58,099 nt of DNA, taken from positions 1 through 58,099 of the forward strand of contig JAEUJW010000064.1 of the NCBI GenBank assembly GCA_016793465.1, given 5' to 3'. The position numbers and the translations under genes are program-made. Origin of the DNA: Myxococcales bacterium. GTDB taxonomy: Bacteria > Myxococcota > Polyangia > Nannocystales > Nannocystaceae. Below, in pieces: positions 3,106 through 40,939 of this stretch (position 1 is the stretch's first letter; every line of letters starts with the position of its first letter). A model generated the notes under the pieces. That model was not told the DNA's origin. It ran no database searches and saw nothing but the letters and a program-made list of their open reading frames with translations.

Positions 3106-4086
3106 ATGCTCCCGGGCTCCCACCGCTTGCCGGCCTGCGCCCTCGCCTGCGCCCTCGCCTGCGCCCTCGAGCCCGAGCACACCCTCGGCTCCCCGCTCGC
3201 CGAGTTCGAACTCCAGCTCGCACCCGCCGACGCACCCGCCGCCCACCTCGCCTGGCAACCCCCGCGCTGCCCCCTCGTCTACCGCGTCCGCGTCGACGAG
3301 ACCTACCCCCCGGGCGTCGCCGAGTTCCTCAACACCCGGCCCGAACACAGCGAGAGCTGGCTCGCCGTCGAGCCCGCCGACTCCACCTGGCCCCCGGGAC
3401 CTGTCCCTACGGACAGGGTGTTCGCCAGCTCGCTGGTGTTCACCGGCCCGCGCACCCAGCACCGCCCGCTGCGCCGCGAGTTCGCCCTGTCCGCCGCGCT
3501 CGCCGGCCCCGCCTCGCCCGACGCCGCCTGCTTCGAACGCACCTGGGACCCCGTCGAGGACGCGCTCGCGCTCGGCTGGCCGCAGCTGCCCGCCCGCATC
3601 ACCGCGGTCGGCGAGTCGTGGACCGGCGCGCGCGTCGAGTCGCGCTGCAACCGCTCGGCCTGCGTCGACCCCGAGACCCACGGCGGCGGCAAGACCGCCC
3701 ACCACCTCCCGTGCGTGACGCCGTCGTGGCGCGAGCGCCTCGACGGCCTCGGCGAGCTGCCCGCGCCGGACGGCCCGCTCCGCGTCGCCGTGATCTCGAG
3801 CGCGTGGACCGACGGCAACCCGGTCGGCGAGGGCCTGTCGAGCGAGCGCACCGCCGTGGTCTCGCTGACCGACGGCCGCCTCGTGCACGCGCACGCGAAG
3901 ATCCACCACGGCTACTCCGGCATCGAACGCGAGCTCCGCCTCGACGCCGTCGACACCTGCCCCGGCAGCCTCGTCAGCGCCGGCTGGCAGCCCCCCGCGT
4001 CCGTCGTCGACGCCCGCGAGGCCGTCCTCGCCGCGCGCGACAAGACCCCCCGCTCGACTGGAATAACCGCCCAAAAGGGGCGTTAG
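3106..4086 (+). CDS. hypothetical protein, possibly exported
   Basis: 326 residues. The N-terminus repeats ACAL three times, which could be a short signal or lipoprotein segment. The rest is soluble, with scattered Cys ([26 protein letters not shown]). No family recognised. Codon use is typical of the region. A perfect copy of the dispersed palindrome (CCTGTCC-CTAC-GGACAGG, 3400-3417) is read in frame as PVPTDR around residue 100. Stop is 7 nt before murA. Confidence 0.6.
3400..3417. repeat. dispersed palindrome, copy 1
   Basis: CCTGTCC-CTAC-GGACAGG, perfect 7-bp arms with a 4-nt spacer, inside the 3106-4086 frame. Confidence 0.75.
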
Positions 4087-4093
4087 GGCCGAT

Positions 4094-5359
4094 ATGGACA
4101 AGATCGTCATCCACGGTGGCCACCGCCTCTCCGGCGAGATCCGCATCCTCGGCGCCAAAAACGCCGCCCTCCCGATCCAGTGCGCCGCCCTCCTGACGGA
4201 CACGCCCACCACCCTCCGCCACGTCCCCCGCCTCAGCGACGTCGCGACCATGAACCAGCTGCTCGCCGGCCTCGGCTGCGAGGTCGACGGCGACCGCACC
4301 CTGACGATCGACCCCGCCGGCGTCGCCACCGGCCCGCTCGAGGCCCCCTACGATTTAGTCAAAACCATGCGCGCCTCGGTCACCGTGATGGGCCCGCTGC
4401 TCGCCCGCTACGGCCGCTGCCGCGTGTCGCTGCCCGGCGGCTGCGCGATCGGTGCCCGCCCGATCGACCAGCACCTGCGCGGCCTCGAGGCCCTCGGCGC
4501 CAAGATCCGCATGGCCCACGGCTACGTCGAGCTGAAGGCCAGGCGCCTGAAGGGCGCCCGCTTCAACTTCGACATCGTCACCGTCGGCGGCACCCAGAAC
4601 GTCATGATGGCCGCCGCCCTCGCCAAGGGCACCAGCATCCTCGAGAACGTCGCCCGCGAGCCCGAGGTCCAGGAGCTCGCCGTCGTGCTCGGCAAGATGG
4701 GCGCGAAGATCCGCGGCGCCGGCACCTCGACCATGGAGATCGAAGGCGTCGACAACCTCTCCGGCATCGACCACGCGATCCTCCCCGACCGCATCGAGGC
4801 CGGCACCTTCATGGTCGCCGCCGCGATCACGCGCGGCGACGTCCTCCTCGAGCACGCCCCGGTAGATCACCTCCACGCCGTCATCGCCAAGCTCGAGGAG
4901 GCCGGCGCCCGCTGCGTCGTCGAACCGCGCGGCCTCCGCGTCGTGGGCCCCGAGGCCCTGCAACCGATCGACCTCGTGACCCGCCCGCACCCCGGCTTCC
5001 CCACCGACATGCAGGCGCAGATGATGGTCCTCGCCACCTGCGCTCACGGCCAGAGCATCATCACCGAGACGATCTTCGAGAACCGCTTCATGCACGTCCC
5101 GGAGCTCAACCGCCTCGGCGCCGACATCCACATCAACGGCAACTCCGCAGTAATTAAAGGTCCCGCGCGCTACAGCGGCACCACCGTGATGGCCACCGAC
5201 CTGCGCGCCAGCGCCAGCCTGGTGCTCGCCGGCCTCGTCGCCGAAGGCAAGACCGAGATCCGCCGCGTGTACCATATCGACCGCGGCTACGAGGCCATCG
5301 AAAAACGCCTGCGCCCGGTCGGCGCGAAGATCCGCCGGTACCACGGCGCCCAGAGCTGA
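4094..5359 (+). CDS. murA: UDP-N-acetylglucosamine 1-carboxyvinyltransferase
   Basis: 421 residues, the usual MurA length. It transfers enolpyruvate from PEP to UDP-GlcNAc, the first committed step of peptidoglycan synthesis, in the cytoplasm. Landmarks: LGAKNAALP near the N-terminus (Lys-Asn pair), the active-site loop [14 protein letters not shown] with the catalytic Cys (Cys-115 type, so fosfomycin-sensitive in principle), the Asp in [11 protein letters not shown], and [14 protein letters not shown]. Two AT-rich codon patches stand out: GAT TTA GTC AAA near 4350 and GTA ATT AAA near 5150. No strong Shine-Dalgarno. Confidence 0.97.
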
Positions 5360-5457
5360 TCTCCTGCGGAGAGCGAAGCCGCGCAGGCGCCGCACACCCG
5401 CCTGTACGCCCCCAAAAGCCCGCACAAAGCACTTCCACCGATCCAGTGGAGAGAAAC

Positions 5458-6201
5458 ATGGCGCTCCGGCATTATGGATCGCCGAAGGACTGCATGAGCA
5501 AGCACGACGACCCCAGCCTGGTCCGCACGGCCGTCGCCCAGCGACTCAAGGTCCATGTCCGCCTCGCCCAGCAAGGCATCAGCCCCACCAACGATCAGCG
5601 CCGCCGCCTCGCCCACGCGCTGCCCGACATCCTCCCGTTCGGCGACCGCCACTACGCCGCCGCCCACATCGTGCTCGACTGGGACCACCACCTCCCATCC
5701 GAGGCCGTGCTCATCCGCCTCTACCTCAGCTACACCGAGCGCGAGGCCAACGACGTCGAGGCCTCGCTGAAGCTCCGCGACCGCGAGATCGACGCCGACA
5801 ACCTCTACCCCGAGTTCGACGTCCCCGACTACGGCGAGATCGACGCCAGCGAGACGTACATCGGCGTGGTCCGCACCGCCACCTACGACATCGAGGAGCT
5901 GCGCTTCTTCAGCGACTGGCGCAAGAGCGTGCAGCAGCCGGTCGTCCGCGAGGTCCTCGGCATCGTCCGCGCCCACCCCGGCTACGAACGCTCGATGCGC
6001 GAGCGCTCCCACGACAACCTCGGCCCCCCGGTCGTGATCGGCTGGACCCCGCCCTGCCTCGCCAACTCGCGCCACTGGGCCGTCGAGGTCTGGCTGCTCG
6101 TCGACTTCGACGGCCACATGGGCCGCGCCCACGTGTTCATGGTCGACAACAAGGCCCGCGCCGTCACCCGCGAGTTCTTCACCGAAGTGCAGATCGGCTA
6201 G
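5458..6201 (+). CDS. hypothetical protein
   Basis: About 247 residues from the ATG at 5458, which has GGAGAG 6 nt upstream; a GTG at 5446 and an ATG at 5494 are alternatives. Soluble, rich in charged and aromatic residues, with a C-terminal half of strand-like segments (HWAVEVWLLVDFDGHMGRAHVFMVDNKARAV). I do not recognise the family. It is convergent with the MglA-like gene, separated by a 24-bp perfect palindrome. Confidence 0.65.
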   Translation: MALRHYGSPKDCMSKHDDPSLVRTAVAQRLKVHVRLAQQGISPTNDQRRRLAHALPDILPFGDRHYAAAHIVLDWDHHLPSEAVLIRLYLSYTEREANDVEASLKLRDREIDADNLYPEFDVPDYGEIDASETYIGVVRTATYDIEELRFFSDWRKSVQQPVVREVLGIVRAHPGYERSMRERSHDNLGPPVVIGWTPPCLANSRHWAVEVWLLVDFDGHMGRAHVFMVDNKARAVTREFFTEVQIG

Positions 6202-6203
6202 GC

Positions 6204-6227
6204 GTCGCTGTCCCGCGGGACAGCGAC
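6204..6227. repeat. dispersed palindrome, copy 2 (extended, intergenic)
   Basis: A perfect 24-bp palindrome whose core is CTGTCC-CGCG-GGACAG (6208-6223). It fills the gap between two convergent stop codons. It could act as a two-way terminator stem, but no T-run follows on either side. Confidence 0.75.
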
Positions 6228-6233: not shown

Positions 6234-6860
6234 TCACGCCTCCGCGTACTCGCCGCTCTCGCTGCCGTCGCTGCTGCTGCCCCGCCGCAGGTCCATCAGC
6301 ACCAGCTCGGCGACGCTCTTCAACGTGTCGAACACGCCGACGCCGGTCATCGCCACCGCCTCGAACGCCGGCCGCCCCGACGCGTTGAGCTGCCCCGCCA
6401 GCACCTCGACCGGCGCCGCGTTCGGCAGGTCGCGCTTGTTGTACTGGAACACCAGCGGCACCCGGTCGAACGCGTAGCCCTGCAGCGCCAGGTTGGTCTC
6501 GAGGCGCTCGAGCGACTCGACGTTGGCCTCCTCGCGCTCGGTCTGCGAGTCCGCGACGAACACCACCCCGTCGACCCCCTTGAGGATCTGCACCCGCGAG
6601 GCGTCGTGGAACACCGCCCCCGGCACCGTGTGCAGGTGCAGGCGGATCTTGAAGCCGCGGATCTCCCCCAGCGACTGCGGCGCGAGGCTGAAGGAGAGCG
6701 TGCGCTCGCTCCCCGTCATCACGCTCGTCATCTGCGTGCGGAGCTCGGGCGCCGTCCGCGAGTAGATGTACTGCAGGTTGGTCGTCTTACCGCCGAGCCC
6801 GGGGCCGTGATACACGAGCTTGCAGCTGATCTCCCGCGCCCTGTAGTCGATGAACGACAT
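6234..6860 (-). CDS. MglA-like small Ras-family GTPase
   Basis: 208 residues from the ATG at 6860 (MSFIDYRAREISCKLVYHG), collinear with Myxococcus MglA. P-loop GPGLGGKTTN, switch region, VPGAVFHDASR (Walker-B equivalent), then GVDGVVFVADSQ and QYNKRDLPNA for guanine recognition. MglA sets the leading pole and drives gliding motors, controlled by its Roadblock partner MglB; paralogues have other polarity roles. Here the P-loop has Gly where MglA has Cys (GLCGKTT). No adjacent mglB, but two Roadblock proteins lie near 48-50.5 kb. The longer upstream frame (to 7055) looks non-coding. Confidence 0.88.
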   Translation of the reverse strand: MSFIDYRAREISCKLVYHGPGLGGKTTNLQYIYSRTAPELRTQMTSVMTGSERTLSFSLAPQSLGEIRGFKIRLHLHTVPGAVFHDASRVQILKGVDGVVFVADSQTEREEANVESLERLETNLALQGYAFDRVPLVFQYNKRDLPNAAPVEVLAGQLNASGRPAFEAVAMTGVGVFDTLKSVAELVLMDLRRGSSSDGSESGEYAEA

Positions 6861-10474: not shown

Positions 10475-11405
10475 GTGGTCCCTGCCCCGCTGCGCCCGCG
10501 CGCGCTCCGCCCCGGCGCCCGCATCCACATCGTCGCGCCCTCGGGCCCCGTCCCGCCCGACCGCCTCGAGGCCGGCCTCGCCGCCCTGCGAAACTTCGTC
10601 CCGGGTGAGATCTCGCTCGCCCCCAACCTCCCGCTCCGCGCCGGCTACTTCGCGGGCGACGACCGCGCCCGCCTCGACGCCCTCCAGGCCGCCCTCGCCG
10701 ACCCCGAGATCGACGCCGTGGTCTGCGCCCGCGGCGGCTACGGCCTCACCCGCCTGCTGCCCCTCCTCGACCCCGCCCGCCTCGCCGCCGCCCCCAAGCT
10801 GCTCGTCGGCTTCTCCGACATCACCGCCCTGCTCGCCTGGGCGCTCGCCCGCGTCGGCCTCGCCTCCGTGCACGGCCCGGTCGTCACCCAGCTCGCCACC
10901 GTCGCCCCCGAGGACGGCGAGCGCCTGGCCCTCCTGCTCGCCGGCGAGGACCCCGGCGCCCTGTCCGCAGAGACAGGTTCGGTGCTGCGCGGCGGCCGCG
11001 TCGAGGGCCCGCTGTTCGCCGGCAACCTCGAGGTGCTGCGCTCGCTCGTCGGCACCCGCGCCATGCCCGACCTCGCCGGCTGCGTGCTCGCGCTCGAGGA
11101 GATCGGCGAGCGCCCCTACCGCATCGACCGCGCGCTCACCCAGCTGCTCACCAGCGGCGCCCTGCGCGGCGTCCGCGGCGTCGCCCTCGGCCAGCTCGTC
11201 GCCTGCGAGGAGCCCGCGACCGGCAACCCCGACAGCCCGACCGCCGAGGAGGTCCTGCTCGAGCGCCTCGGCGTGCTCGGCGTGCCGGTCGTGACCGGCT
11301 TCCCCTTCGGCCACGCGCCCGACCGCCACGCGCCGCTGCCGGTCGGCAGCGTCGTGCGCCTCGACGCCGAGCACGGCGACCTCACCATGCTCGAGCCGCT
11401 GACCG

Positions 11406-12659: not shown

Positions 12660-12984
12660 GATGGGCTCCGGCTAGTTGTTCATAGCAAAGCAAGACGCGG
12701 GCCAACCGCGCAATAAGTCCCGAACGGCGTCACCCCGTGCGTGCACGCGCGGCCTATCGTCAACACTGCGACCGTCGCTTCACACCCCGCTTACAAGCAT
12801 GTCCTTAGCGACATGTCTCGAAGACCAGTGAACGAAGTTCCCGGCTCCGTCGCGGCGATCCGCCGCCATCCACGCGTACGCGCAAGAACAACGGACAATC
12901 GCGCGACACCTGGCGGACGCCGTGTGACCGCCGCTACGCGGACGGGCAAACGACCGGACACGTGTCCATGCCTGCGCTGCGCCG
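12660..12984. other. non-coding region with two inverted repeats
   Basis: 325 bp, slightly lower GC, no convincing gene. It contains CATGTC-CTTAGC-GACATG (12798-12815) and a perfect palindrome GGACACGTGTCC (12956-12967), both built from TGTC/GACA half-sites related to the dispersed palindrome. A TATCGT occurs near 12763 with no start codon at the usual distance. Confidence 0.5.
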
Positions 12985-14397: not shown

Positions 14398-17259
14398 ATG
14401 CATCACGGCCTCCGGCCTGAACGGACCCGCCAGTCCGTGCGCTTGCTCGCAGCCCTCGCCCTCGCCCTGGCCTGTCAGACCAAGCCCCCCGCGACCTCCA
14501 CCACGCCTCCGGAGATCTCCGCGCAAACATCGGAGCAGGACGCCCCCGCCATCGCGGTCCCCGACGACGATGACGCGCCCGGCGAACCCGAGGCCAAACC
14601 CCCCGCCCGCCGACCCCCGCCCGCCGACGTCGCGTCCACCGCCGCCGCCCTCGACGCCCTCGGCCACTCCAACCCCGAGGGCGCCGCCGCCTTCCTGAAG
14701 AAGGAGGCCCAGCGCGACCCCGCCGACGAGTCCGTCCGCCTCGCCCTCGCCCTCGCCCTCGTCACCACCGGCGCCTACGACGAGGCCGAGGCCACGCTGT
14801 CTCAAAAGACAGGTAAGAAGCCCCCGTCGAGCGCCGTCGTGCGCACGCACGCCGGGCTCCGCCTGCTCCGCGGCGACGTCGCCGGCGCCGAGGCCATGCT
14901 GACCGCCCGCCTCGCCGCCGACGCGGGCGACCTCGCGGCCCGCGGCGACCTCGTGGCCCTGCGCGCGCTGACCGGCCGCGCCGCGCAGTCGCGCGACCAC
15001 ATCGACGCGCTCTACGACGCCTACGACGCCGGCAAGGCCACCAGCGTCGACGGCCTGATCGCCGTGGCCAGGGCCGCGCGCGCGCGCGGGACCACCGGCG
15101 CCTTCCAGGACGCCAACATGGTCCTCGGCGACGCCGAGCGCCTGGCCGCCGCCGCGTCCGGACCCGAGCCGCAATTCGTGGCGCAGGACCGCGTGCTGCT
15201 GCTGCGCGGCGAGATCTTCCGCGAGAAGTACGCCGCCGCCGAGGCCGCCGCCTCCTACGAGATCGTGCTCCAGCGCGACCCCTGGCAGCCCGACGCGCTC
15301 GCCGGCATGGCCATGACCCACCTCGAGGAGCTCCGCCTCGCCGCCGCCGCCAAGGCCGCCGAGGCCGCCCTCCAGACCAACCCCAGGCACCCCGAGGCCC
15401 ACGGCGTGCTCGCACGCGTCGCCCTCGTCGAGGGCCGCCGCGCCGAGGCCGTCGACCGCGCCAAGAATTCCGTCCTCAAGGTCTCCCCCAAACACCCCGT
15501 CGGCCTCGCCGTGCTCGCCGGCGCGGCCCTCGCCGCCGACGACCTCGCCGCCTTCAACAAGGCCCGCGACGAGGCCATCACCTACGCGCCCACGAGCTTC
15601 TACCTCGCCCTCGCCGACCTCCTGGTCTCGATGCACCTCTACGAGCAGACCGGCGCCGTGCTCGCCGAGGCCGTCAAGCGCGACGAGAACGACGCCTCCC
15701 TGCAGTCCGCCCACGGCCTCAACCTGCTCCGCCTCGGCAAGGAGACCGAGGGCCGCGCCGCCCTCGCCCGCGCCTGGAAGCGCGACCGCTTCAACGAGCG
15801 CACCCGCAACACCCTCGACCTCTACGACCAGCGCATCGACCCCCACTACACCGACGCGACCGACGGCGACCTCCGCCTGCGCCTCCCCAGGGCGGACGCC
15901 GAGCACGTCCAGTCCGACTACCTCGCCCTCATCGCCGCCGCCCGCAAGTCGCTCGACCAGCGCTACGGCATGCACCCCGGCCCCCTGCGCATCGAGGTGT
16001 TCGGCGACCCCCACGACTTCAGCGTGCGCACGATCGGCGTGCCCAGCCTCGGCGCCGTCGGCGTGTGCTTCGGCGACCTGATCACCAGCGTCGGCCCCTA
16101 CGGCGGCACCCACAACTTCCATCAGGTGCTGTGGCACGAGCTCGCCCACGTCTACGCGGTCAAGCTCAGCAAGGGCCGCGTGCCCCGGTGGTTCACCGAA
16201 GGCCTCAGCGAGTGGGAGTCGGAGCTCGCCGACCCGAGCTGGGCCCGCGAGTCCGCCGAGCTGCTCGCCGAGGCCCGCCGCGCCGGCAAGCTGCGCAAGC
16301 TCGGCGAGCTCGACCTCGCGTTCCTCCGCGCCACCAGCTCGATCATGATGGAGGTCGCCTACGCCACCGCCGCCTGGTCGATGCGCTACCTCGGCGAGAC
16401 CTACGGCCTGCCGAAGCTCAGCGAAATTTTAAAGGGCTACGCCACCGGCGCGACCACCGAGGAGCTGTTCCAGAAGCACCTCGGCAAGGACATGCCCACG
16501 GTCGAGCGCGAGTTCGAGGCCTGGATGCTGGCCCGCCTCGACAGGACCATCTCCGGCTGGCACCCCAGCAAGGACAAGCAGGGCGACGAGCGCGACGCCC
16601 TCTTCAAAAAATCGGTCGAGCAGCTGCGCGCCAGGGACTACACCTCCGCCGCCCGCACCCTGCAGCAGCTCATCCAGGGCCGCGGCGACGGCTTCCGCCC
16701 GCGCATGCTGCTCGGCGAGGTGCTGCTGCAGGGCCCGCAGTGGAAGGCCAGCGAGCAGCACTTCAATAAGGCCCGCGAGTTCCAGCGCGAGGCGATCGAG
16801 CCGCTCATCCGCCTCGCCGAGGTCGCCCGCAAGGCCGGCGACGTCGCCGCCGAAAAGCAGCACCTCCGCGACGGCCTGGCGATCGACGCCATGTCCCTCG
16901 ACCCCGCCGCCCGCCTGACGATGCTCTCCGTCATCACCAGGGACGACGCCACCTTAAAATATGCCCTCGACCGCAGCGTGGCGATCGCCCCGCTCCACCC
17001 GCTCACCCTCGCCGCTCAATCATTAAAATCCGCCAGGGCCGGCGACAGACCCCGCGCTCAGGCCCTCTCGAAGCGCGCCCTCGAGGGCATCGACAAGGTC
17101 GAGGGCCGCGGCCCCGCCGACACCCTCGTCGTGCTCGCCCTCGCCGCCGAGGCCGCCGGCGACGCCACCACCGCGAAGATCCTCGCGACCCGCGCGAGCG
17201 CCGAAAAAGACCTGCCCGAGCCCGCCAAGCAGGCCATGAGCCGCATCCTCGGCAAGTAG
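14398..17259 (+). CDS. TPR lipoprotein with peptidase-MA (gluzincin) domain
   Basis: 953 residues. Signal peptide with lipobox LALALAC, then a Pro/Glu/Asp-rich linker (about 25-80) and many TPR units (about 80-480). A zinc peptidase core follows: WHELAHVYAVKLSKG gives HExxH, and WFTEGLSEWE supplies the third ligand Glu and neighbours. More TPR-like repeats fill the C-terminal 350 residues. The metallopeptidase part matches the peptidase MA family. Probably a surface or periplasmic lipoprotein. Palindrome copy 4 encodes LSQKTG between two TPR helices. AT-rich codon runs lie at 16425, 16953 and 17021. Confidence 0.85.
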   Translation: MHHGLRPERTRQSVRLLAALALALACQTKPPATSTTPPEISAQTSEQDAPAIAVPDDDDAPGEPEAKPPARRPPPADVASTAAALDALGHSNPEGAAAFLKKEAQRDPADESVRLALALALVTTGAYDEAEATLSQKTGKKPPSSAVVRTHAGLRLLRGDVAGAEAMLTARLAADAGDLAARGDLVALRALTGRAAQSRDHIDALYDAYDAGKATSVDGLIAVARAARARGTTGAFQDANMVLGDAERLAAAASGPEPQFVAQDRVLLLRGEIFREKYAAAEAAASYEIVLQRDPWQPDALAGMAMTHLEELRLAAAAKAAEAALQTNPRHPEAHGVLARVALVEGRRAEAVDRAKNSVLKVSPKHPVGLAVLAGAALAADDLAAFNKARDEAITYAPTSFYLALADLLVSMHLYEQTGAVLAEAVKRDENDASLQSAHGLNLLRLGKETEGRAALARAWKRDRFNERTRNTLDLYDQRIDPHYTDATDGDLRLRLPRADAEHVQSDYLALIAAARKSLDQRYGMHPGPLRIEVFGDPHDFSVRTIGVPSLGAVGVCFGDLITSVGPYGGTHNFHQVLWHELAHVYAVKLSKGRVPRWFTEGLSEWESELADPSWARESAELLAEARRAGKLRKLGELDLAFLRATSSIMMEVAYATAAWSMRYLGETYGLPKLSEILKGYATGATTEELFQKHLGKDMPTVEREFEAWMLARLDRTISGWHPSKDKQGDERDALFKKSVEQLRARDYTSAARTLQQLIQGRGDGFRPRMLLGEVLLQGPQWKASEQHFNKAREFQREAIEPLIRLAEVARKAGDVAAEKQHLRDGLAIDAMSLDPAARLTMLSVITRDDATLKYALDRSVAIAPLHPLTLAAQSLKSARAGDRPRAQALSKRALEGIDKVEGRGPADTLVVLALAAEAAGDATTAKILATRASAEKDLPEPAKQAMSRILGK
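14797..14812. repeat. dispersed palindrome, copy 4
   Basis: CTGTCT-CAAA-AGACAG, perfect 6-bp arms with a 4-nt spacer and compensating changes (T and A) at the inner pair. In frame in the peptidase-MA gene. Confidence 0.65.
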
Positions 17260-19433: not shown

Positions 19434-19439
19434 TAGCAT
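19434..19439 (+). promoter_or_regulatory. -10 box TAGCAT, leaderless type
   Basis: TAGCAT 7 nt before the ATG at 19447. Confidence 0.55.
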
Positions 19440-19446: not shown

Positions 19447-20196
19447 ATGCACCGACTCGCCCTGGCCCTCGGCCTCCTGCTCGCCTGCGGCGACGGTCCA
19501 CCACAGCGTCAGCCGCCGCCCCCGCTGCCCGGCACCACGCCCGCCGCGCCCGCGCCCGCCGCTCCTGCTGCCCCCACGCCCGACACCCCGGCCGCGCGCG
19601 AGCTCACCGAGATCTGCCTGGCCACCGCGACCATCGCCCCCAACCTCCCGCCCAACGACCGCTTCCAGCGCGCCCTGCTCGCCGCCGAGGCGGCGGCTGT
19701 CTCTCCGGACAGCAAGGCCCTCGTCCAGCGCCTGCGCAACCAGGACCTCGGCGAGCAGTCCGCCGAGCTCCGCCGCGCCGTCGCGGCCGCCGGCCTGGCC
19801 GGCTGCGTGCTCGCCGACAACATGGACCTCATCGCCGGCGCCCAGCCCAACGTCCCCGACGCGCGCGCCCTCGTCACCACCTTCGAGGCCCTCGCCACCG
19901 TCTCGCCCGAGTTCACGGACCGCCTGCTCGCCGCCGCCTGCAGCGAGCTGTCCGCGTGCGGTCGCGAGTGCACGCCCGGCCTCGCCGGCTTCGCCGAGGC
20001 CGAGCCCGAACAGCGGGTCCTCGCGCTCATGCGCCAGTGCGCCAGCTTCCGCGCCCAGGCCGGCGGCACCACCGACGCCGCCGCCTTCGCGTGGATCCGG
20101 GCCCGCATCACCGCCTTCGCCGACGCCAGCGCCGGACTCCTCGGCCCCGCCGAGGCCGCCCGCCTCGCCGAGCTGCGCGCGCCCCTCGGGCTCTAG
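19447..20196 (+). CDS. hypothetical lipoprotein
   Basis: 249 residues. Signal peptide with lipobox GLLLAC, a Pro/Ala linker (about 20-50), then an all-helical region with conserved-looking Cys (EICLATATIAP, LAGCVLADNMDL, AAACSELSACGRECTP). Family not recognised. Palindrome copy 5 (19696-19713) encodes AVSPDS. The much longer upstream frame lies opposite the GST gene and is not coding. Next gene starts 35 nt downstream with its own -10 box. Confidence 0.7.
   Translation: MHRLALALGLLLACGDGPPQRQPPPPLPGTTPAAPAPAAPAAPTPDTPAARELTEICLATATIAPNLPPNDRFQRALLAAEAAAVSPDSKALVQRLRNQDLGEQSAELRRAVAAAGLAGCVLADNMDLIAGAQPNVPDARALVTTFEALATVSPEFTDRLLAAACSELSACGRECTPGLAGFAEAEPEQRVLALMRQCASFRAQAGGTTDAAAFAWIRARITAFADASAGLLGPAEAARLAELRAPLGL
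19696..19713. repeat. dispersed palindrome, copy 5 (imperfect)
   Basis: GCTGTC-TCTCCG-GACAGC: 6-bp arms, inner pair T-G. In frame in the 19447 lipoprotein gene. Confidence 0.6.
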
Positions 20197-22958: not shown

Positions 22959-24074
22959 TCACCGACGGAGCTCGCAACGCACCGCGTCCCAGGCCGCGAG
23001 GCCCTTGACGCGGTCGAACATCGGCGTGAGCGCCGGGTCCACCCCGGCGCCCATCCTCAACCACTGTTTGACGCGGGCCAGCGCTCGTGAGGGCTGCAGA
23101 CCGGTGCCTACCAGCAACTCGTGGTAGCGCACCAGCAGCGCTCCGAGGCTGGCTCGCTCTTTCTGTTCGTCGTACGGCTCGCCGCGGATCGCCGCGAACA
23201 CCCGCGGCCGGGCCATCGCCGCCCGGCCGATCATGAACGCCTCGCAGCAGCTCTCGCCCGCGCAGGCCTGCACGTCCGCCGGCCCGCACACGTCGCCGTT
23301 GGCGACCACCGGCACCTCGACGACCGCCCGCGCGCGCGCGAGCGCGTCCCACACCACCGGCGGCTGATACAGCTGCGACCGCGTGCGGGCGTGGATGGTG
23401 ATCCACTCCGCCCCGCCCGCCGCCGCGGCCTCGGCGATCGCCTCGATCCCCTCCGACGAGTCCCACCCGACCCGCATCTTCATCGTCACCGGCACCCCGG
23501 GCCGCACCAGCTCCCGCGTCCGCGCCACGATCCGCCGGATCCGCTCCGGATACTTTAATAGGGAGGCCCCGCCGTCGTGGTTGTTCACGGTCTTCGCCGG
23601 GCACCCGAAATTCAGGTCGATCCCCGGCGCCCCCAGCTCCGCGGCCACCTGCGCCGTGCGGGCGATCGGCTCCGGGTCTCCGCCCAGCAACTGCACGAAC
23701 ACCGGCACCCCCGCCGCCGTGCGCCCGCCATGGCGCAGCTCCGGCACCTCGCGCAGCAGCACCGCCGCCGGCACCGGGTCCCGCGTCACCCGCACGAACT
23801 CCGACACGCACACCGAGATCCCGCTGCGCCCGTCCGCCGTCAGGAGCCCGCGGTACACCGCGTCCGTCACGCCGTCCATCGGCGCCAGCGCGAGGTACAG
23901 CCCCGCCGCGTCCGGCCGCTCCGCCACCTGCGCCCGCGCCGACCAGCGCGCCCGCCAGGCCGCCGCGGCCGCGACGCGCCTGTCCGCGAGGACAGCCTCG
24001 CTCACGCGCCGCGCCGGATCCGCCACGAACACCTCGCACGCCCCGGCCGCGCACGCCCCCGTGATCCCCTGCAT
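22959..24074 (-). CDS. tRNA-dihydrouridine synthase (Dus family)
   Basis: 371 residues. FMN enzyme that reduces uridine to dihydrouridine in tRNA. TIM-barrel motifs LALAPMDGVTDAVYR, PVFVQLLGGDPEPIART, the catalytic Cys in IDLNFGCPAKTVNNHDGGASLLK, TMKMRVGWD, ITIHARTRSQLY, VVANGDVCGPADV and FMIGRAAMARP. The GCPAKTVN loop favours a DusC-like type. About 60 residues precede the barrel (MQGITGACAAGACEVF...), unusual for Dus; a later start is possible. Palindrome copy 6 lies in this extension and encodes AVLADR. Confidence 0.9.
   Translation of the reverse strand: MQGITGACAAGACEVFVADPARRVSEAVLADRRVAAAAAWRARWSARAQVAERPDAAGLYLALAPMDGVTDAVYRGLLTADGRSGISVCVSEFVRVTRDPVPAAVLLREVPELRHGGRTAAGVPVFVQLLGGDPEPIARTAQVAAELGAPGIDLNFGCPAKTVNNHDGGASLLKYPERIRRIVARTRELVRPGVPVTMKMRVGWDSSEGIEAIAEAAAAGGAEWITIHARTRSQLYQPPVVWDALARARAVVEVPVVANGDVCGPADVQACAGESCCEAFMIGRAAMARPRVFAAIRGEPYDEQKERASLGALLVRYHELLVGTGLQPSRALARVKQWLRMGAGVDPALTPMFDRVKGLAAWDAVRCELRR
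23980..23995. repeat. dispersed palindrome, copy 6
   Basis: CTGTCC-GCGA-GGACAG, perfect. In frame in the N-terminal extension of the Dus gene. Confidence 0.75.
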
Positions 24075-27487: not shown

Positions 27488-28375
27488 GTGCCGCGTGTGC
27501 GTCGTCGCCCCTGTGTGCCGCTGCTGATCGCAGCGCTGATCGCCTCGTGGCCGGCGCCGGCGCCGGCGCTCGCTCCGCCCGCGAAGTGCCCCAAGAAAGT
27601 CGACGCCGCTCCCCCCGCCGAGGCCCTCGAGCTGAAGAACGTCGCCCAGGACATGCGCTCCGCCGAGGCCTGGACCAAGGCCACCCGCTACTTCCGCGAC
27701 GCCGTCGTCGCCCTCCCGCGCTGCCCGACCTACGCCGACGAACGCCTGCGCTGGACCCTCTGGGCCGTCGAGACCTTCGAGGCCAGCCGCGCCGCGCCCG
27801 ACGACGACCTCCGCGGCTTCGTCGACGCCCAGCTCGACCTGCTCGCCCCCGACACCGACCGCCTGCCCGACCACCCGCAGCTGGTCGCCGCCCGCGAGCG
27901 CCTCCAGCCCGTCGCCGAGCCCGAGCCCCAACCTGTCCCCGAGGACATCCCACCTCCGCCCGTCCGCCGCAGCAGACCCGCCGGTCCCGCCTTGCTCGGC
28001 ACCGGCGGCGCCGTTCTCGTCGTCGGCGCGGTGCTCGGCGGCGTGTTCGCGTCGCGCGCCCGCGGCCTCTCGGACCAGCTCAACGGCGACGCCGGACTCT
28101 ACGACCAGGCCGCCGCAGTCGGGTGTGGCGCCGAGCCCACCGCCGGCGACGACCCGTCCTGCACGGACCTCCGCGCCGACATCGACCACACGCGTGACGC
28201 GGGCCACAGCGCCGACACCGTCGCCGTCGTCGGGATCTCCCTGGCCGCGGTCGGCGCCGCCCTCGCGCTCACCGGCCTCGGCCTCACCCTCCACGCCCGC
28301 CGCGCCCGCCGCTCCGAGTCGACCCTCCGCGTCGTCCCGCAGTGGGCCGGCCTCTCGCTCACCGGCAGGTTCTAG
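27488..28375 (+). CDS. hypothetical exported/membrane protein
   Basis: 295 residues from a GTG. Signal peptide about 1-29 (VPLLIAALIASWPAPAPALA), a helical region with KATRYFRDAVVALPRCPTYADERLR (TPR-like), a Pro-rich linker, then two membrane helices (ALLGTGGAVLVVGAVLGGVFA and TVAVVGISLAAVGAALALTGLGLTL) flanking a Cys-containing loop. This layout is common in myxobacterial proteins encoded next to Ser/Thr kinases. Divergent from the kinase gene. Linker palindrome 7 encodes PVPEDI. Confidence 0.65.
   Translation: MPRVRRRPCVPLLIAALIASWPAPAPALAPPAKCPKKVDAAPPAEALELKNVAQDMRSAEAWTKATRYFRDAVVALPRCPTYADERLRWTLWAVETFEASRAAPDDDLRGFVDAQLDLLAPDTDRLPDHPQLVAARERLQPVAEPEPQPVPEDIPPPPVRRSRPAGPALLGTGGAVLVVGAVLGGVFASRARGLSDQLNGDAGLYDQAAAVGCGAEPTAGDDPSCTDLRADIDHTRDAGHSADTVAVVGISLAAVGAALALTGLGLTLHARRARRSESTLRVVPQWAGLSLTGRF
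27936..27949. repeat. dispersed palindrome, copy 7 (short)
   Basis: TGTCC-CCGA-GGACA, 5-bp arms; outer pair does not match. In frame in a Pro-rich linker. Confidence 0.5.
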
Positions 28376-29017: not shown

Positions 29018-29065
29018 GCCGGCGTTCCCCCGGCCTGTCGAGCATCGACCTGTCCGTAAGGCCAG

Positions 29066-30151
<1,086 letters not shown>

Positions 30152-30152
30152 C

Positions 30153-30168
30153 CTGTCCCTCCGGACAT
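30153..30168. repeat. dispersed palindrome, copy 8 (intergenic)
   Basis: TGTCC-CTCC-GGACA with one mismatched outer pair. It occupies the 22-bp gap between the asd stop and the pfkA start. Confidence 0.55.
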
Positions 30169-30173
30169 GTCCC

Positions 30174-31214
30174 TCAGGGCATCGCGCCCGGCGCCTGCAG
30201 CACCGGGTCGGCCGCCTGGAACCACCGCGCCGCGACGCGCACCGCGTTGGTCGCCGCCCCCAGGCGCAGGTTGTCGCCCGCCACCGTCAGGCACACCTCC
30301 GCGGGCGCGCGCGGATCGACGCGCACCCGCCCGGCCAGCGCGTGGTCGCGGTCGTGCACGCACGCGAGCGCCGACAGCCCCGCCCCGTCCGGCGCGGGGA
30401 CCGCCCGCACCAGCGGAGACGCGCGCTCGTCGACCAGCAGCGCCAGCACCTCCGCAGGCGTGACCGCCCGTTCGCAGCGCAGCCACACCTGCTCGTAGTG
30501 CCCGACCGCCACCGGCACCCGGCAGGCCTGCGCCGACACCCGCAGCTCCGGCGCCGCCAGGATGCGCACCGTCTCGCTCATCAGCTTGCGCTCCTCGGCC
30601 GAGAACCCGCTCTCGTCGGTCTTGCCGTTGTGCGGCACCGTGTTGCCGACGTACCCGCTCGGCGCCAGCTGCTGCCCGAGCCGGTCCTCCTGCTGGTAGC
30701 CGACGCGCGCCTCCAGCAAGAATTGGTCGAGCGTCGCCAGCCCGGCCCCGCTGATCGCCTGGTACGTGGCGACCGTCACCGACTGCAGGCCGAACGCGCG
30801 GCGCAGCGGCGCCAGCACCAGCGCCAGCGGGATGGTCGTGCAGTTCGGATTGGCCACCAGCCCGGTCTCCGCGGTCACCAGCCCGTCGTTGACCCCGGCG
30901 ACCACCAGCGGGACCTGCGGGTCGTGGCGGTAGGTGTTGCTCTTGTCGACCACGCGGTAGCCGAGCTGGCGCAGCCGCGGCACGTAGCGCGCGCTGTACT
31001 CGTCGTCGAGGGCAACGAAGGCCAGGTCGCCGCCGGTCACGTCGGCGCCGTCGAGCGCCTGCGCCCCGCGCACCGCGAAGTGCCGGCCGCCCACTTCGAG
31101 GTCCTGGTCGCGGCTCGCATACAGCTCGAGCTGCGCCCCGGGCCACGCCCGCGGGATGAGGTGCAGCAGCTCACGTCCGACCAGCCCCGTCGCGCCGAGA
31201 ATGCAGATCCGCAT
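30174..31214 (-). CDS. asd: aspartate-semialdehyde dehydrogenase
   Basis: 346 residues. Reduces aspartyl phosphate to the semialdehyde, feeding Lys/DAP, Met and Thr synthesis. NADP-binding ILGATGLVGRELL, SNTYRHDPQVPLVVAGVN, catalytic Cys in VANPNCTTIPL, GAGLATLDQFLLEAR, and substrate/His motif CRVPVAVGHYEQV. The last has Tyr after GH where many have Ser. ATG at 31214 is 8 nt after a TATAGT box. Confidence 0.95.
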   Translation of the reverse strand: MRICILGATGLVGRELLHLIPRAWPGAQLELYASRDQDLEVGGRHFAVRGAQALDGADVTGGDLAFVALDDEYSARYVPRLRQLGYRVVDKSNTYRHDPQVPLVVAGVNDGLVTAETGLVANPNCTTIPLALVLAPLRRAFGLQSVTVATYQAISGAGLATLDQFLLEARVGYQQEDRLGQQLAPSGYVGNTVPHNGKTDESGFSAEERKLMSETVRILAAPELRVSAQACRVPVAVGHYEQVWLRCERAVTPAEVLALLVDERASPLVRAVPAPDGAGLSALACVHDRDHALAGRVRVDPRAPAEVCLTVAGDNLRLGAATNAVRVAARWFQAADPVLQAPGAMP

Positions 31215-36535: not shown

Positions 36536-39034
36536 ATGCCCCGCGGACTCGCCCTGCTGCTCGCCCTGGGGATCCTCGCGCCGTGCCTCGTCACCGTGCG
36601 CGCCCGCCTCGAGCCGCCGACCCCGCTCGCGCGTGACGCCGACGAGCACGGCTTCTCCGCCGCTCGCGCCCTCGATCGCCTGCACGCGCTGATCGGCGAC
36701 GACCGCCCGCACCCCGTCGGATCCCCCGCCGGCGAAGCCGTGCAGCGGCACATCCTCGCCGAGTTCACCGCCCTCGGCATCGAGGCCGAGATCCAGTCGA
36801 CCTTCGCCTGCAGCGTGCGCAGCGCCAGCTGCGGCCGCGTCGGCAACGTCGTCGCCCGCCTCCCGGGTCGCGCGTCCGGCCCGGCCCTCCTCGTGTCCGC
36901 CCACCACGACTCGGTGCCCGCCGGACCTGGCGCCGGCGACGACGGCTCCGGCGTCTCGGCCATCCTCGAGCTCGCCCGCGCCCTCACGCGTGAGCCCCCG
37001 CACCACAGCCCCGTGGTCCTCCTGCTCGTCGACGGCGAAGAGGCCGGCCTGCTCGGCGCCGAGGCGTTCGTCGCGCAGCACCCCTGGGCTCGCGAGGTCG
37101 GCGCCGCCATCAACCTCGACGCCGGCGGCACCCGCGGCGTCACCTCGATCACCCGCACCAGCCCCGGCAACACGCTGCTCGTCGACGCCTTCGCCGCCGA
37201 CGTGCCCCGGCCCTACGGCGCCTCCGTCACCGGCACCGTCTACGGCCTCACCCCCTACGACACCGACTGGTCGGTCTACAACCGCAACGGCATCCTCAGC
37301 ATCGACCTCGGCTTCGGCGAGGACAAGGCCCACTACCACACCCCCCTCGACCAATTATCCAACCTCGACCCCGCCAGCGTGCAGCACCTCGGCGACACCG
37401 CCCTCGCCCTCGTCCGCCGGCTCGCCGACCAGCCCCTCCCCGCCCCTCCCCCCGCCGACTTCGCCGAGCAGCACAAGTCCCGCCCCCGCCCCTGGCTCGG
37501 CGAGCGCGTGTTCCTCGACGCCCTCGGCTGGGCCCTCGTCACCTGGCCCGCCCTCGCCACCCCCCTGCTCGCCCTCCTCGCCGTCGCCCTCCTGTCCCTC
37601 GCAACCTGGCGCATGCGCCCTGTCCTCCAGGACAGTTTAAATATTTTAATTGGAACTCCCGACGCGCACGCCTCCTCGCGCCACGCTCTCGACCTCGCCA
37701 CCGACGCGCACGCCTCCTCGCGCCTCGCCCACGCCCCCGACCTCGCCACCGACGCGCACGCCTCCCCGCGCCTCGACCACGCGCACTCGCCCGGCCCGCA
37801 CGCCGCCCCCGTCGCCCGAGAGACTCGCAGGCGCCGCGTCCTGCTCGCCCTCGCCTTCCCGCTGCTCGTGCTCGTCCCCGCCGCGCTCGGCGGCGGCCTC
37901 GCCTGGCTGCTCGCCACCTTCACCTCCTCCGAGTTCCCCGGCCACGTCGACCCCTTCTATCCCCGCCTCGCCGTCTGGTCGGCCGTGCTCGCCGCCAGCG
38001 GCCTGCTCGCCGCGCGCCTGCTCGCCGTCCTCGGCCCCGCGCGCCTCGCCCTCGCGATCTGGTGGAGCCTCGCCGGCATCACCCTCGCCTCCTCGATCGC
38101 CGCGCCCGCCGCCAGCGTCGGCTTCCTCCCGCCGGTCCTGCTCGCCGCCGTGCTCCTCACGCTGCTCGGCCGCCGCCTCGAGCTCGCGCTCCTGTTCGCC
38201 CTCCCGCTGCCCGGCCTGCTGTGGCTGCAGGCCGCCGTCCGCCTCGAGGCGATGTTCGGCCTCGGCATCGCCGGCGCCGCCGTGATCGCCCTGATCTCCG
38301 CCCTCGTCGCCCCTCTGTGGCCCGCGCCCGACGCCGCGCGCCGCTCCGCGACGCGCCTCCCGCTCGCCCTGCTCCCGCTCACGCTCCTCGCCGCCGGCCT
38401 CACCTTCACGGTCCCGGCCTACAGCGACGAGCGCCCGCGCCGCCTGACCCTCGTGCTACACCACGACGCCGACACCGGCAACGCCCGCTGGCTGGTCGAC
38501 GGCGACCTCCCGCTGCCACGAGCCCTCGCGCCCAGCTTCGACCCCGAGCCCGCGCCCGCGTTCCCCTGGACCCCCGACGACGAGCCGAGCTGGACCGCCC
38601 CCGCCGACCCGCTCCCGGCCCCGCCGCCCGACCTGTCCCTCGAGCCAGGCGCCCCCGACCTCCGCGGCCCCTGGGGTCGCTACCTCAAGTTGCGCCTGCG
38701 CTCGCCCCGCGGCGCCCGCACGGCCGCGCTGGTGATCCCCGACAGCGCCGACGTGCGCTGGCTGGCGATCGGCGGCGAGGACGTCCCGCTGTACCCCGAG
38801 CACCGCCGCAAGTGGTACCGCGACGTCCGCCACCACCCGATCGTCGGCATCCCGCCCGAGGGACTCGTCATCGAGCTCGCCGTCCGCAGCCACGACCCCG
38901 TCACCTTCACCGTCATCGACTCCGCCGAGGGCCTGCCGCCGACCGCCGCCGCGCTGCTCACGGCCCGCCCGACCTGGACCACCCCCTCACACGGCGGCGA
39001 CCGCACGATCGTCAGCCGCAGCTTTAATTATTAA
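36536..39034 (+). CDS. M28-family zinc aminopeptidase with multi-pass membrane domain
   Basis: 832 residues. An N-terminal signal/anchor leads to an M28 domain (about 40-300): LLVSAHHDSVPAG (His ligand), GAGDDGSGVSAILEL (bridging Asp), LLVDGEEAGLLGAEAF (catalytic Glu and ligand), and DKAHYHTPLDQLSN (His ligand). About eight membrane helices follow, then a C-terminal extracytoplasmic domain. Eukaryotic FXNA/Pff1-type membrane peptidases share this order. Between the first helix pair and the rest lies a loop with palindrome copy 9, an AT-rich run, and three copies of a DAHASSR-type repeat. Final codons are AT-rich (SFNY). Confidence 0.88.
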   Translation: MPRGLALLLALGILAPCLVTVRARLEPPTPLARDADEHGFSAARALDRLHALIGDDRPHPVGSPAGEAVQRHILAEFTALGIEAEIQSTFACSVRSASCGRVGNVVARLPGRASGPALLVSAHHDSVPAGPGAGDDGSGVSAILELARALTREPPHHSPVVLLLVDGEEAGLLGAEAFVAQHPWAREVGAAINLDAGGTRGVTSITRTSPGNTLLVDAFAADVPRPYGASVTGTVYGLTPYDTDWSVYNRNGILSIDLGFGEDKAHYHTPLDQLSNLDPASVQHLGDTALALVRRLADQPLPAPPPADFAEQHKSRPRPWLGERVFLDALGWALVTWPALATPLLALLAVALLSLATWRMRPVLQDSLNILIGTPDAHASSRHALDLATDAHASSRLAHAPDLATDAHASPRLDHAHSPGPHAAPVARETRRRRVLLALAFPLLVLVPAALGGGLAWLLATFTSSEFPGHVDPFYPRLAVWSAVLAASGLLAARLLAVLGPARLALAIWWSLAGITLASSIAAPAASVGFLPPVLLAAVLLTLLGRRLELALLFALPLPGLLWLQAAVRLEAMFGLGIAGAAVIALISALVAPLWPAPDAARRSATRLPLALLPLTLLAAGLTFTVPAYSDERPRRLTLVLHHDADTGNARWLVDGDLPLPRALAPSFDPEPAPAFPWTPDDEPSWTAPADPLPAPPPDLSLEPGAPDLRGPWGRYLKLRLRSPRGARTAALVIPDSADVRWLAIGGEDVPLYPEHRRKWYRDVRHHPIVGIPPEGLVIELAVRSHDPVTFTVIDSAEGLPPTAAALLTARPTWTTPSHGGDRTIVSRSFNY
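37620..37635. repeat. dispersed palindrome, copy 9
   Basis: CTGTCC-TCCA-GGACAG, perfect, read as PVLQDS. Followed at once by TTTAAATATTTTAATTGG. Confidence 0.75.
37661..37800. repeat. in-frame tandem repeat, 42-48 bp unit
   Basis: Three copies beginning GACGCGCACGCCTCC (37661, 37703, 37751), encoding DAHASSRHALDLAT, DAHASSRLAHAPDLAT and DAHASPRLDHAHS. Copy lengths are multiples of three. It sits in a loop between membrane segments of the M28 protein. Confidence 0.85.
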
Positions 39035-39037
39035 TTA

Positions 39038-39103
39038 TTAAAAAACGCATCGACGTCGCGCCAGCAGCCACACGCCCCCGCCGCCGGTCGCCACGCACCC
39101 CTC
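39038..39103 (-). pseudogene. second, degraded copy of the protease MYXO-CTERM tail
   Basis: Directly after the TGA of the protease gene, the same reading frame continues for 21 codons to a TAA and reads EGCVATGGGGVWLLARRRCVF. This matches the protease's own end (EGCGCATTGGAGVWLLL...ARRRRRRVF). It is a tandem duplication of the 3' end, shortened in the membrane-spanning Leu run. The DNA ends of both copies are AT-rich (GTTTTTAAT and GTTTTTTAA). Confidence 0.8.
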
Positions 39104-40069: not shown

Positions 40070-40075
40070 CTCGCC

Positions 40076-40081
40076 ACCTTA
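40076..40081 (-). promoter_or_regulatory. -10-like box TAAGGT, leaderless type
   Basis: TAAGGT on the minus strand 6 nt before the protease GTG. Confidence 0.4.
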
Positions 40082-40128
40082 CCAAGCCGAACCCCTGCGC
40101 GCCAGACCACACGCGCGCCCACTCGTGC

Positions 40129-40134
40129 TAGCGT
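40129..40134 (+). promoter_or_regulatory. -10 box TAGCGT, leaderless type
   Basis: TAGCGT 10 nt before the TTG at 40145. Confidence 0.5.
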
Positions 40135-40144
40135 CCGCCCCTCG

Positions 40145-40939
40145 TTGGCCCGCTCAGCCCCCACGCTCGCCGATTCGGCCGACCGCCACGCCCTCTATCA
40201 GCAGGCGGTCAACGCCCCCGCCTCGTGCATCGCGTTCCTCCGCGACATCTATCACCAGGTCCGCGGCCGCCCGCCGCGAGTCCTGCGCGAGGACTTCTGT
40301 GGCACGGCCCTGCTCGCGACCATGTGGGCCGAGCACTCGCCGGAGCACCGCGCCGTCGGCGTCGACCTCGACCCCGAGGCCCTGGCCTGGGCCCGCGCGC
40401 ACAACCTCGCGGCCTCGCCCGCGCGCGAGCGCGTCGAGCTCATCCTCGCGGATGTCCTGGAGGACATCCCGCAGCGCGCCGACATCGTCTGCGCGCTCAA
40501 CTTCAGCTACTACCTGCTGACCACGCGCCGCCGGCTCGTCACGTACTTCAAGCGCGTGCGGCGGGCCCTCATGCCGGGCGGGCTGTTCGTGCTCGACAGC
40601 CTCGGCGGCACCGACGCGATGGCCGACTTCTGCGAGGAGCGCGACTGCGGCGAGTTCACCTACGTGTGGCGCCAGACCGGCTTCAACCCGCTCGACCACG
40701 GCTCGACCTGCACGATCGGCTTCACCTTCCCCGACGGCTCGGCCCTCGACCCCGCGTTCTCCTACCCCTGGCGCATGTGGACGATGCCGGAGATCCGCGA
40801 CTGCCTGGTCGAGGCCGGCTTCTCGCGCGTGCGCATCTTCTGGGAGTACGTCGACGCCGACGACAACCCGGAGTACGTCGAGGTGGTCCGCGAGGAGAAC
40901 CAGGAGATCTTCCTGACGTACCTGGTGGCCGCTCCGTGA
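40145..40939 (+). CDS. class I SAM-dependent methyltransferase
   Basis: 264 residues from a TTG. Motif I is the variant REDFCGTALLATMWAE; motif II AVGVDLDPEALAWAR; then ILADVLEDIP, IVCALNFSYYLL, and the post-motif LMPGGLFVLDSLGG. NFSYYLL is typical of a methyltransferase subfamily of unknown substrate. A palindrome-like sequence (copy 10) encodes DVLEDI. 19 nt upstream of the threonine aldolase gene, which has its own -10 box. Confidence 0.85.
   Translation: MARSAPTLADSADRHALYQQAVNAPASCIAFLRDIYHQVRGRPPRVLREDFCGTALLATMWAEHSPEHRAVGVDLDPEALAWARAHNLAASPARERVELILADVLEDIPQRADIVCALNFSYYLLTTRRRLVTYFKRVRRALMPGGLFVLDSLGGTDAMADFCEERDCGEFTYVWRQTGFNPLDHGSTCTIGFTFPDGSALDPAFSYPWRMWTMPEIRDCLVEAGFSRVRIFWEYVDADDNPEYVEVVREENQEIFLTYLVAAP
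40451..40468. repeat. palindrome resembling the dispersed family, copy 10
   Basis: GATGTCC-TGGA-GGACATC, perfect 7-bp arms; core TGTCC/GGACA matches, outer bases differ. It falls in a conserved methyltransferase motif, so it may be coincidental. Confidence 0.4.

Follow-up and report, generated by a model that had tools for sequence, protein, structure and literature searches.

The window analysed here is a stretch of 58,099 nucleotides (contig JAEUJW010000064.1, forward strand) from a Myxococcales bacterium of the Nannocystaceae (GenBank assembly GCA_016793465.1), through whose genes and intergenic gaps a short DNA dyad, CTGTCC-N4-GGACAG, is scattered. The dyad proves to be abundant throughout one clade of relatives, in most of which it is also fused into lattices with a 14-bp register at gene 3' ends, and it is tentatively read below as the site of a dimeric DNA-binding protein. 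Genes in the window and in its relatives were called with a custom codon-usage script. A reading made from the sequence alone had reported four exact copies of the dyad, at 3401, 6208, 23980 and 37620, and all four are present. The close copies that it listed also exist, although some of their coordinates were off by 1-3 positions and are now placed at 10961, 14797, 19697, 27933, 30153 and 40452, with two mismatches relative to the CTG form at 14797 and 40452. Its list of degenerate copies holds as well, with one mismatch at 21458 and 29050 and two at 21479, 38633 and 51155. Measured against 100 dinucleotide shuffles of the window, the four exact copies compare with a shuffle mean of 0.01 (0/100 shuffles reach four), the 10 matches with at most one mismatch with a mean of 0.22, and the 17 with at most two mismatches with an expected 3.29. 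At up to three mismatches the count of 50 barely exceeds that of the shuffles (35.7; 2/100 shuffles reach 50), and three-mismatch matches are therefore mostly chance. The excess of dyads in the window is thereby confirmed, while the interpretation first placed on it is supported in part. Eleven of the 14 window sites from 3401 to 40452 fall within predicted genes and three are intergenic (Table 1).

Table 1. Dyads and related features in the window
Position	Feature	Context
3401..3416	exact dyad CTGTCC-CTAC-GGACAG	in gene 3106-4086 (no Pfam match), read VPTDR
6208..6223	exact dyad CTGTCC-CGCG-GGACAG	32-bp gap between convergent genes 5494-6201 (+) and 6234-7055 (-)
10961..10976	one-mismatch dyad	between the two domains of an LD-carboxypeptidase, read LSAETG
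12798..12815	CATG pair, 14 bp apart (CATGTCCTTAGCGACATG)	intergenic, resembles lattice
14797..14812	dyad CTGTCT-CAAA-AGACAG, two mismatches	in TPR/peptidase gene 14437-17259
19697..19712	one-mismatch dyad	in gene 18733-20196, whose true start is probably later
21458..21494	pair of degenerate dyads at a 21-bp distance, with arms GGCCAG and GACCAG	in gene 21331-22530 (PGA_cap), upstream of the domain
23980..23995	exact dyad	N-terminal extension or upstream region of Dus-domain gene 22959-24074 (-)
27933..27948	dyad CTGTCC-CCGA-GGACAT	in gene 27515-28375 (+), read VPEDI
29050..29065	one-mismatch dyad	directly downstream of phosphofructokinase gene 29066-30151 (-)
30153..30182	two overlapping dyads 14 bp apart, CTGTCC-CTCC-GGACATGTCC-CTCA-GGGCAT	between phosphofructokinase and semialdehyde-dehydrogenase genes
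37620..37635	exact dyad	in M28 peptidase gene, read VLQDS; AT run next
38633..38648	degenerate dyad, two mismatches	in the M28 peptidase gene that also holds 37620, read LSLEPG
40452..40467	ATG-form dyad ATGTCC-TGGA-GGACAT	in methyltransferase gene 40145-40939, read DVLEDI

The palindrome at 6208..6223 continues outward beyond the dyad, and the overlapping dyads at 30153..30182 have one central CATG. The extension that holds the copy at 23980 is doubtful, as the Dus domain starts only at residue 63. A search of the window against Rfam at the gathering score gave only a tRNA and SAM_alpha, neither of them at a dyad site.

The dyad was counted genome-wide, as the sequence-only reading had proposed, with the same pattern reversed as the control. 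The relatives of the window's LD-carboxypeptidase come from two Enhygromyxa salina genomes, a Gemmatimonadetes bin and a Nannocystis metagenome bin, G004. The window phosphofructokinase is 78% identical to that of G004 (238 residues matched), 72-74% identical to those of six further genomes, G018-G023, and 71% and 70% identical to those of G014 and G015. G018-G023 are of 11-13 Mb each and belong to the same order as G004, and we infer that they are Nannocystis-like. G004 has 162 exact dyads (reversed control 3) and G018-G023 have 316-497 each (reversed control 0-2), with 1, 1 and 0 in the two Enhygromyxa genomes and the Gemmatimonadetes genome. A survey of 29 genomes from the order of G004 gave 8-17 copies in G012-G015 and 0-2 in the other 18 genomes. 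When 377 genomes were sampled from the phylum to which G020 belongs, a draw that contains G020 only of the seven dyad-rich genomes, G020 has 497 copies and is followed by G015 with 15, G012 with 8 and G166 with 6, the remaining genomes having at most 4. These counts lie far above the reversed-pattern control and not near expectation, and they show that dyad abundance is restricted to a single clade, G004 and G018-G023, at 162-497 copies. The Nannocystis group are soil predators. In 760 kb of Nannocystis-like DNA, 361 degenerate copies were found, 163 of them in the intergenic 14% of this DNA, 194 within genes and 4 at gene boundaries, so that the earlier description of the copies as mostly inside genes, while true of the window, is less so of these genomes. 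In one stretch (L084, 19276-19726) nine strict dyads are clustered in one predicted gene, and the G018 block around phosphofructokinase (L019-L021 joined) has at 51755-51950 six half-matching copies in 36-bp steps (CTGTCC..GGCCAT). An apparent depletion near the terminus, initially suggested by the finding of 1/31 exact CTG dyads in 13 of 40 G020 stretches (5.3 to 9.2 Mb), was dropped because the subset of dyads with a CCGA spacer (29, 32 and 31 in G019, G020 and G021) is without such a trend, 37/90 of these sites on the main contigs lying in the origin half (hand count with dnaA as origin; two on G019:C2 excluded).

Adjacent dyads in genomes of the G018 type overlap in their outer ACATGT, with the result that CATG recurs every 14 bp, in arrays that reach seven CATGs in the stretches examined. 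In a 460-kb sample of G018, in which 400 kb of G018:C1 was chosen partly at known copies so that densities are biased upward, a spacing of 14 bp separates 235 CATG pairs, compared with a median of 7 pairs for the other spacings. The corresponding figures are 140 against 7 in 800 kb of G020, taken as evenly spaced stretches with one position omitted where a block was already in the set, and 36 against 2 in 240 kb from four further genomes; no such pair occurs in the 41 kb sampled from Enhygromyxa, and G015 has 2 in 44 kb. Period-14 arrays of at least three CATGs number 69 in G018 (284 CATGs) versus 0-2 at periods 11-13 and 15-17, and 34 in G020 versus 0-3 at other periods. The triple word CATG-N10-CATG-N10-CATG occurs 1005 times in G020 and at most 22 times in any of the other 376 genomes of the phylum draw; in the order it occurs 862-1666 times in G018, G019 and G021-G023, 26 times in G004 and 0-8 times in nine others. 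This lattice at gene 3' ends lay beyond the view of the sequence-only reading and is nearly absent from the window, the whole of which has CATG-N10-CATG twice (12798, 47971), a number that 7/100 shuffles reach. Dyads are common to the window, G004 and G018-G023; lattices mark G018-G023. Triple-CATG hits are also present in G013 (8) and G014 (6), and those examined (7 and 6) are short, AT-rich and all intergenic. In G013 (L105-L111, at about 1525-1600) four of the seven 14-bp CATG triples stand beside DUF4215 or IgGFc-binding genes. Perhaps, and as a lead only, these AT-rich triples represent an older operator form of the lattice.

The place of the lattices is as distinctive as their period. 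Of the 69 arrays in G018, 31 lie in convergent gaps, 30 in co-directional gaps, 1 in a divergent gap and 7 inside genes. A scored lattice element, which on forward versus reversed sequence is found 249 and 1 times in G018, 132 and 0 times in G020 and 78 and 2 times in a 60-kb five-genome block, is present in 25/30 convergent gaps of 100-300 bp in G018 and in 0/32 divergent ones; divergent gaps of this size carry it in 0/36 cases in G020 and 1/17 in the five-genome block. When all gaps of at least 30 bp are taken, convergent and divergent gaps with the element are 37/52 and 2/60 in G018, 23/68 and 7/96 in G020, and 9/27 and 4/49 in the five-genome block. The median distance from element to stop codon in G018 is 47 bp. 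The lattices of G018 do not have the form of intrinsic terminators, namely a GC hairpin followed by a T tract. Such hairpin-plus-T signals are found at 17/260 G018 3' ends (9 in shuffles), where the lattice is found at 115/260 and both at 8. Their frequency is 6-7% among the 3' ends surveyed in G018 and G020 and 6-10% across G018, G020, G015, G013, G004 and the window, often at or below the level of the shuffles; in Enhygromyxa they stand at 3/14 3' ends (0 in shuffles). The idea that the lattice replaces intrinsic terminators was rejected, there being no visible trade-off between the two and the numbers from relatives being too small to show one.

The form of the site bears on whether it acts as DNA or as a folded RNA. 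Its logo is RC-MTGTCC-YNNR-GGACAK-GY, with highly variable spacers and with CTG, ATG and mixed arm forms each common. At positions 3/12 the arm combinations occur almost exactly as often as expected (T/T 115 observed, 113.8 expected; C/T 47, 47.8; G/T 58, 58.0; C/C 9, 5.0). Lattice cells are symmetric (GGRCATGYCC) in both co-directional (246 cells) and convergent (267) gaps, with an AT-rich centre between cells, and G-U versus A-C combinations number 100 and 74 on the sense strand of co-directional gaps and 78 and 111 in convergent gaps. The sequence-only reading had taken paired changes in one copy as the mark of a conserved hairpin; this is not borne out in the larger sample, in which the arms vary almost independently. 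Because a hairpin kept by pairing should show strong compensation throughout, the evidence argues against a hairpin and suggests two half-sites of a dimer on DNA.

That the copies are constrained as DNA is shown by their conservation in genes. The sample comprises two syntenic blocks in six genomes with 93 sites, giving 392 orthologous pairs that are not independent; pairs without a 60-bp alignment on both sides were excluded before counting. Over the 392 pairs identity is 94.9% in the arms, 87.6% in the flanks and 86.2% in the spacer, and the arms are perfect in 270/380 ungapped pairs where 77.7 would be expected from flank divergence. Fourfold-degenerate sites, for which 104 dyad sites were entered, are identical in 793/839 cases in the arms (94.5%) and in 6885/8425 in the flanks (81.7%). 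In the first block 150 control positions in genes show no conservation step (91.2% vs 90.6%) and 35 lone half-sites are unconstrained (90.0% vs 91.7%), and dyad flanks are more permissive than other gene positions (85.9% vs 90.6%). The constraint thus acts on DNA, silent positions included. The reading frames of dyads in genes are skewed (frame 1, n=113; frame 0, n=75; frame 2, n=6); despite this skew, silent-site conservation rules out an explanation by conserved protein motifs alone, which the sequence-only reading had named as the finding that would undo it.

Several comparisons bear on how the sites arose. Insertion footprints are rare, 12/392 orthologous pairs being gapped in the site, and 5/74 sites with at least four orthologues differ from every orthologue by at least two arm bases or a gap. 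The perfect dyad at 25901 in G018 differs from four orthologues by three arm substitutions and from a fifth by six, with no indel. For single cases origin in place by substitution is thus shown. At 10961 in the window LSAETG stands opposite LVAEEG, ungapped and of equal length, in G014 and G015 (the full-length relatives with the two best scores); around this site the six Nannocystis-like genomes are two residues shorter, two Enhygromyxa loci are one longer and the G004 match stops short. The G004 orthologue of the gene at 37620 has neither the dyad nor the linker that follows it. Strict dyads number 5 in 160 kb of G020 stretches with a guanine plus cytosine (GC) content below 70% against 110 in 640 kb of G020, and 38 in the 140 kb of the two syntenic blocks against 115 in 800 kb, a comparison that serves as a proxy for core bias. 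One G020 stretch (L082, at 7.59 Mb) has 20 kb at 52.5% GC within a chromosome of about 71% GC and is probably a recent acquisition.

Lattices are also conserved in position. In the second block 56 gene ends are seen in at least four species, convergent gaps being taken from both sides, and at 27 of these a lattice is present in one or more species; for 12 of the 27 it is found in five or six species and for the rest in one to four. The gap 3' of the G018 gene 40333-42603 is 40 bp long in all six genomes and has CATG at the same three places, of which 1/18 has changed (in G021), while the intervening bases differ. Phase-wise lattice identities rest on local alignments that favour a CATG match, a bias from which this ungapped 40-bp block is free. 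A binding lattice under selection would look like this.

We tentatively favour the explanation that the dyads are sites of a clade-specific dimeric DNA-binding protein that coats the lattices at gene 3' ends, and put it at slightly below an even chance. A dimer particular to the Nannocystis clade would read the two TGTCC half-sites, and in G018-G023, where neighbouring dyads share ACATGT and are centred every 14 bp, it would bind cooperatively. Lattices set just 3' of stop codons, often between convergent genes, would let the bound protein act as a boundary or architectural element that insulates or ends convergent transcription or organises the chromosome. Lone dyads within genes would serve the same protein as isolated sites, tolerated in loose regions of the encoded proteins. 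Of the roles offered in the sequence-only reading a protein-binding site fits best as far as the DNA dyad is concerned, and the protein itself we infer. A more far-reaching proposal, possible but rather doubtful, is a sequence-programmed chromatin, in which a Nannocystis-specific protein sitting cooperatively on 14-bp CATG lattices would mark the 3' ends of many transcription units as boundaries or sites of termination. The lattice system would have grown out of a single-dyad system that persists in the window and in G004. We know of, and came upon, no bacterial counterpart for such a lattice-based boundary or termination system.

A number of findings weigh against the dimeric-protein explanation. 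A search confined to Y1 transposases and to the genes around the 14 densest clusters turned up no binding protein. Lattices are few in the window and in G004, both of which have dyads, so that a role at 3' ends is not necessarily the original one. Enrichment at 3' ends is weaker outside G018, convergent gaps of 100-300 bp carrying the element in 8/25 cases in G020, whose stretches unlike those of G018 were not picked at known copies, and in 1/6 in the five-genome block; exact CTG dyads occur in divergent gaps as well (8/24 of those that are intergenic). Mixed pairs at positions 0/15 are too rare (41, with 57.9 expected), which leaves matched arms in weak excess, and there is weak covariation between cells (z 2.0 to 2.7 at 3/5 positions). 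One of the five private sites is gapped in 3/4 orthologues, and an insertion origin is possible there. Position relative to the origin, a comparison that the sequence-only reading had suggested, showed in the CCGA-spacer subset of G019, G020 and G021 no bias that would point to segregation. An autoregulated binder encoded beside dense clusters was considered and set aside, as none of the genes at the 14 densest clusters is an obvious DNA-binding gene whose promoter holds a cluster. One dense cluster lies about 1.5 kb from a gene resembling an HU/IHF-type protein (judged from its first residues).

The main rival, which we consider unlikely, is an uptake-signal-like motif, whereby dyad-bearing DNA would be preferentially taken up or recombined among relatives. 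The dyads are indeed found chromosome-wide in coding and 3' regions, and the conservation of arms above flanks, the permissive flanks, the scarcity in stretches below 70% GC and the higher density in syntenic blocks all recall the DNA uptake sequence (DUS) of Neisseria (PMC2397512, in excerpt). The dyad is, however, symmetric and less sharp, with 272 one-off sites (summed) against 115 exact ones, and uptake leaves the exact 14-bp register at the same gene ends unexplained; the DUS/DUS-1 ratio of about 2.4 in aligned regions of Neisseria (PMC2397512, in excerpt) is a different measure from these counts. Less probable still is an RNA element, in which the transcribed array would form short hairpins serving either to terminate transcription or to shield the end of the mRNA. 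The short distance to the stop codon in G018, the rarity in divergent gaps, the ability of adjacent CATG words to pair, the weak covariation between cells and the matched excess at positions 0/15 would all suit it. The RNA hairpin, one of the roles first suggested for the dyad, is nevertheless disfavoured, for the arms are near-independent at positions other than 0/15 (as at 3/12), the co-directional cells are symmetric, G-U is not clearly preferred, there is neither a T tract nor a visible trade-off with hairpin-plus-T signals, and dyads occur inside genes too.

An improbable alternative is a palindrome like the highly iterated palindrome HIP1, kept by a DNA methyltransferase or a repair process. 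Such a palindrome would be highly iterated in and between genes, specific to a clade and gained by substitution in single cases, as the dyad is, and CATG could be a methylation target; the spaced dyad with its variable spacer and 14-bp lattice is unlike the 8-bp HIP1. We give very little credence to mobile palindromes like the repetitive extragenic palindromic (REP) sequences and the bacterial interspersed mosaic elements (BIMEs), a reading already largely refuted. Short clustered palindromes in convergent and co-directional gaps, with some in genes, are what is described for REPs (PMC3733652, in excerpt), yet few orthologous pairs are gapped in the site, the loops are variable, stem covariation is slight, and the GTAG/CGTC tag is absent from the strict-dyad logo, in which only RC and GY lie outside the arms; beside 12 window sites these tags are absent or sporadic. 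The REP-associated transposase RAYT (Y1_Tnp, PF01797) was found in 0/9 genomes, while as a positive control it was detected in 5/14 known genomes including E. coli. The tiny mobile palindrome of the sequence-only reading is disfavoured on the same grounds.

Some features of the window and its relatives stand apart from these questions. AT-only runs of 14-23 bp are found at 37636-37651, 39023-39045 and 33689-33702 in window DNA that is otherwise about 73% GC, the first of them directly adjoining the exact dyad at 37620. The gene at 28379-29017 (-), beside that for phosphofructokinase, encodes a chloramphenicol-acetyltransferase-type domain (PF00302, E 4.6e-17), although other acyl transfer may be its function. 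Third-position GC in genes starting past 40 kb is 0.96-1.00 up to 51077 and 0.81-0.88 from 51793; a tRNA-Phe lies at 51420-51495 and an alphaproteobacterial S-adenosylmethionine (SAM) riboswitch, SAM_alpha, at 56881-56958. The last 6-7 kb therefore appear foreign or a chimeric join, and the region 51077-58099, where third-position GC drops from about 0.97 to 0.85, looks like the product either of integration at a tRNA or of a chimeric assembly of the contig. The LD-carboxypeptidase match in L141 and L143-L146 (G022, G019, G018, G020 and G021) crosses one TGA in four genomes, for which a short C-terminus or gene decay may account, and in G021 it falls into two overlapping pieces. With 150 of 196-223 candidates scored, at least 133-147 matches per genome to a 649-aa query were found in G019-G023, most of them confined to the C-terminal part of the query, and this very large family probably consists of kinases.

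Literature searches gave nothing on the motif among the titles and abstract openings listed, and the portions consulted of a genome note on N. exedens (PMC5658511) and of a genome paper on Nannocystis species (PMC10435759) do not mention it. Two steps of the system are visible side by side, single dyads in the window and G004 and ordered lattices in six genomes. Through the lattice, the means by which a large, 72% GC genome keeps convergent transcription apart can be put to the test, and dyad or lattice DNA could serve as bait for a putative DNA-binding protein. To our knowledge motifs iterated genome-wide, such as DUS and HIP1, are few. DUS, once explained, revealed a whole process.

Among known systems REPs and BIMEs resemble the arrays as short palindromes clustered downstream of genes (PMC3733652, in excerpt), and the lattices share their location in convergent or co-directional gaps. 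They differ in that the dyads have no tag, no Y1 transposase, little stem covariation and few insertion footprints. The neisserial DUS and the uptake signal sequence (USS) of Pasteurellaceae are similar in their many copies, in being conserved above their surroundings and in their placement in permissive gene parts and at 3' ends (PMC2397512, in excerpt). DUS are nonetheless sharp 10-nt words, in contrast to the degenerate symmetric dyad and 14-bp lattice seen here. We know of no such lattice for DUS. The HIP1 of cyanobacteria is likewise a palindrome over-represented across a clade, and is an 8-bp contiguous word linked to methyltransferases (PMC4390886, in excerpt). The dyad, with its variable N4, is spaced over 16-20 bp and forms arrays at gene ends, and is not a contiguous word of the GCGATCGC type, so that the two are similar in style but not in form. 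The dyad also brings to mind the p53 half-site, RRRCWWGYYY. The lux box (ACCTGT-N8-ACAGGT) and the LexA box (CTGT-N8-ACAG) have outer words and a dyad geometry equal to those of the CTG form; these are, however, operators at few promoters, whereas the sites described here number hundreds to thousands, many of them away from promoters.

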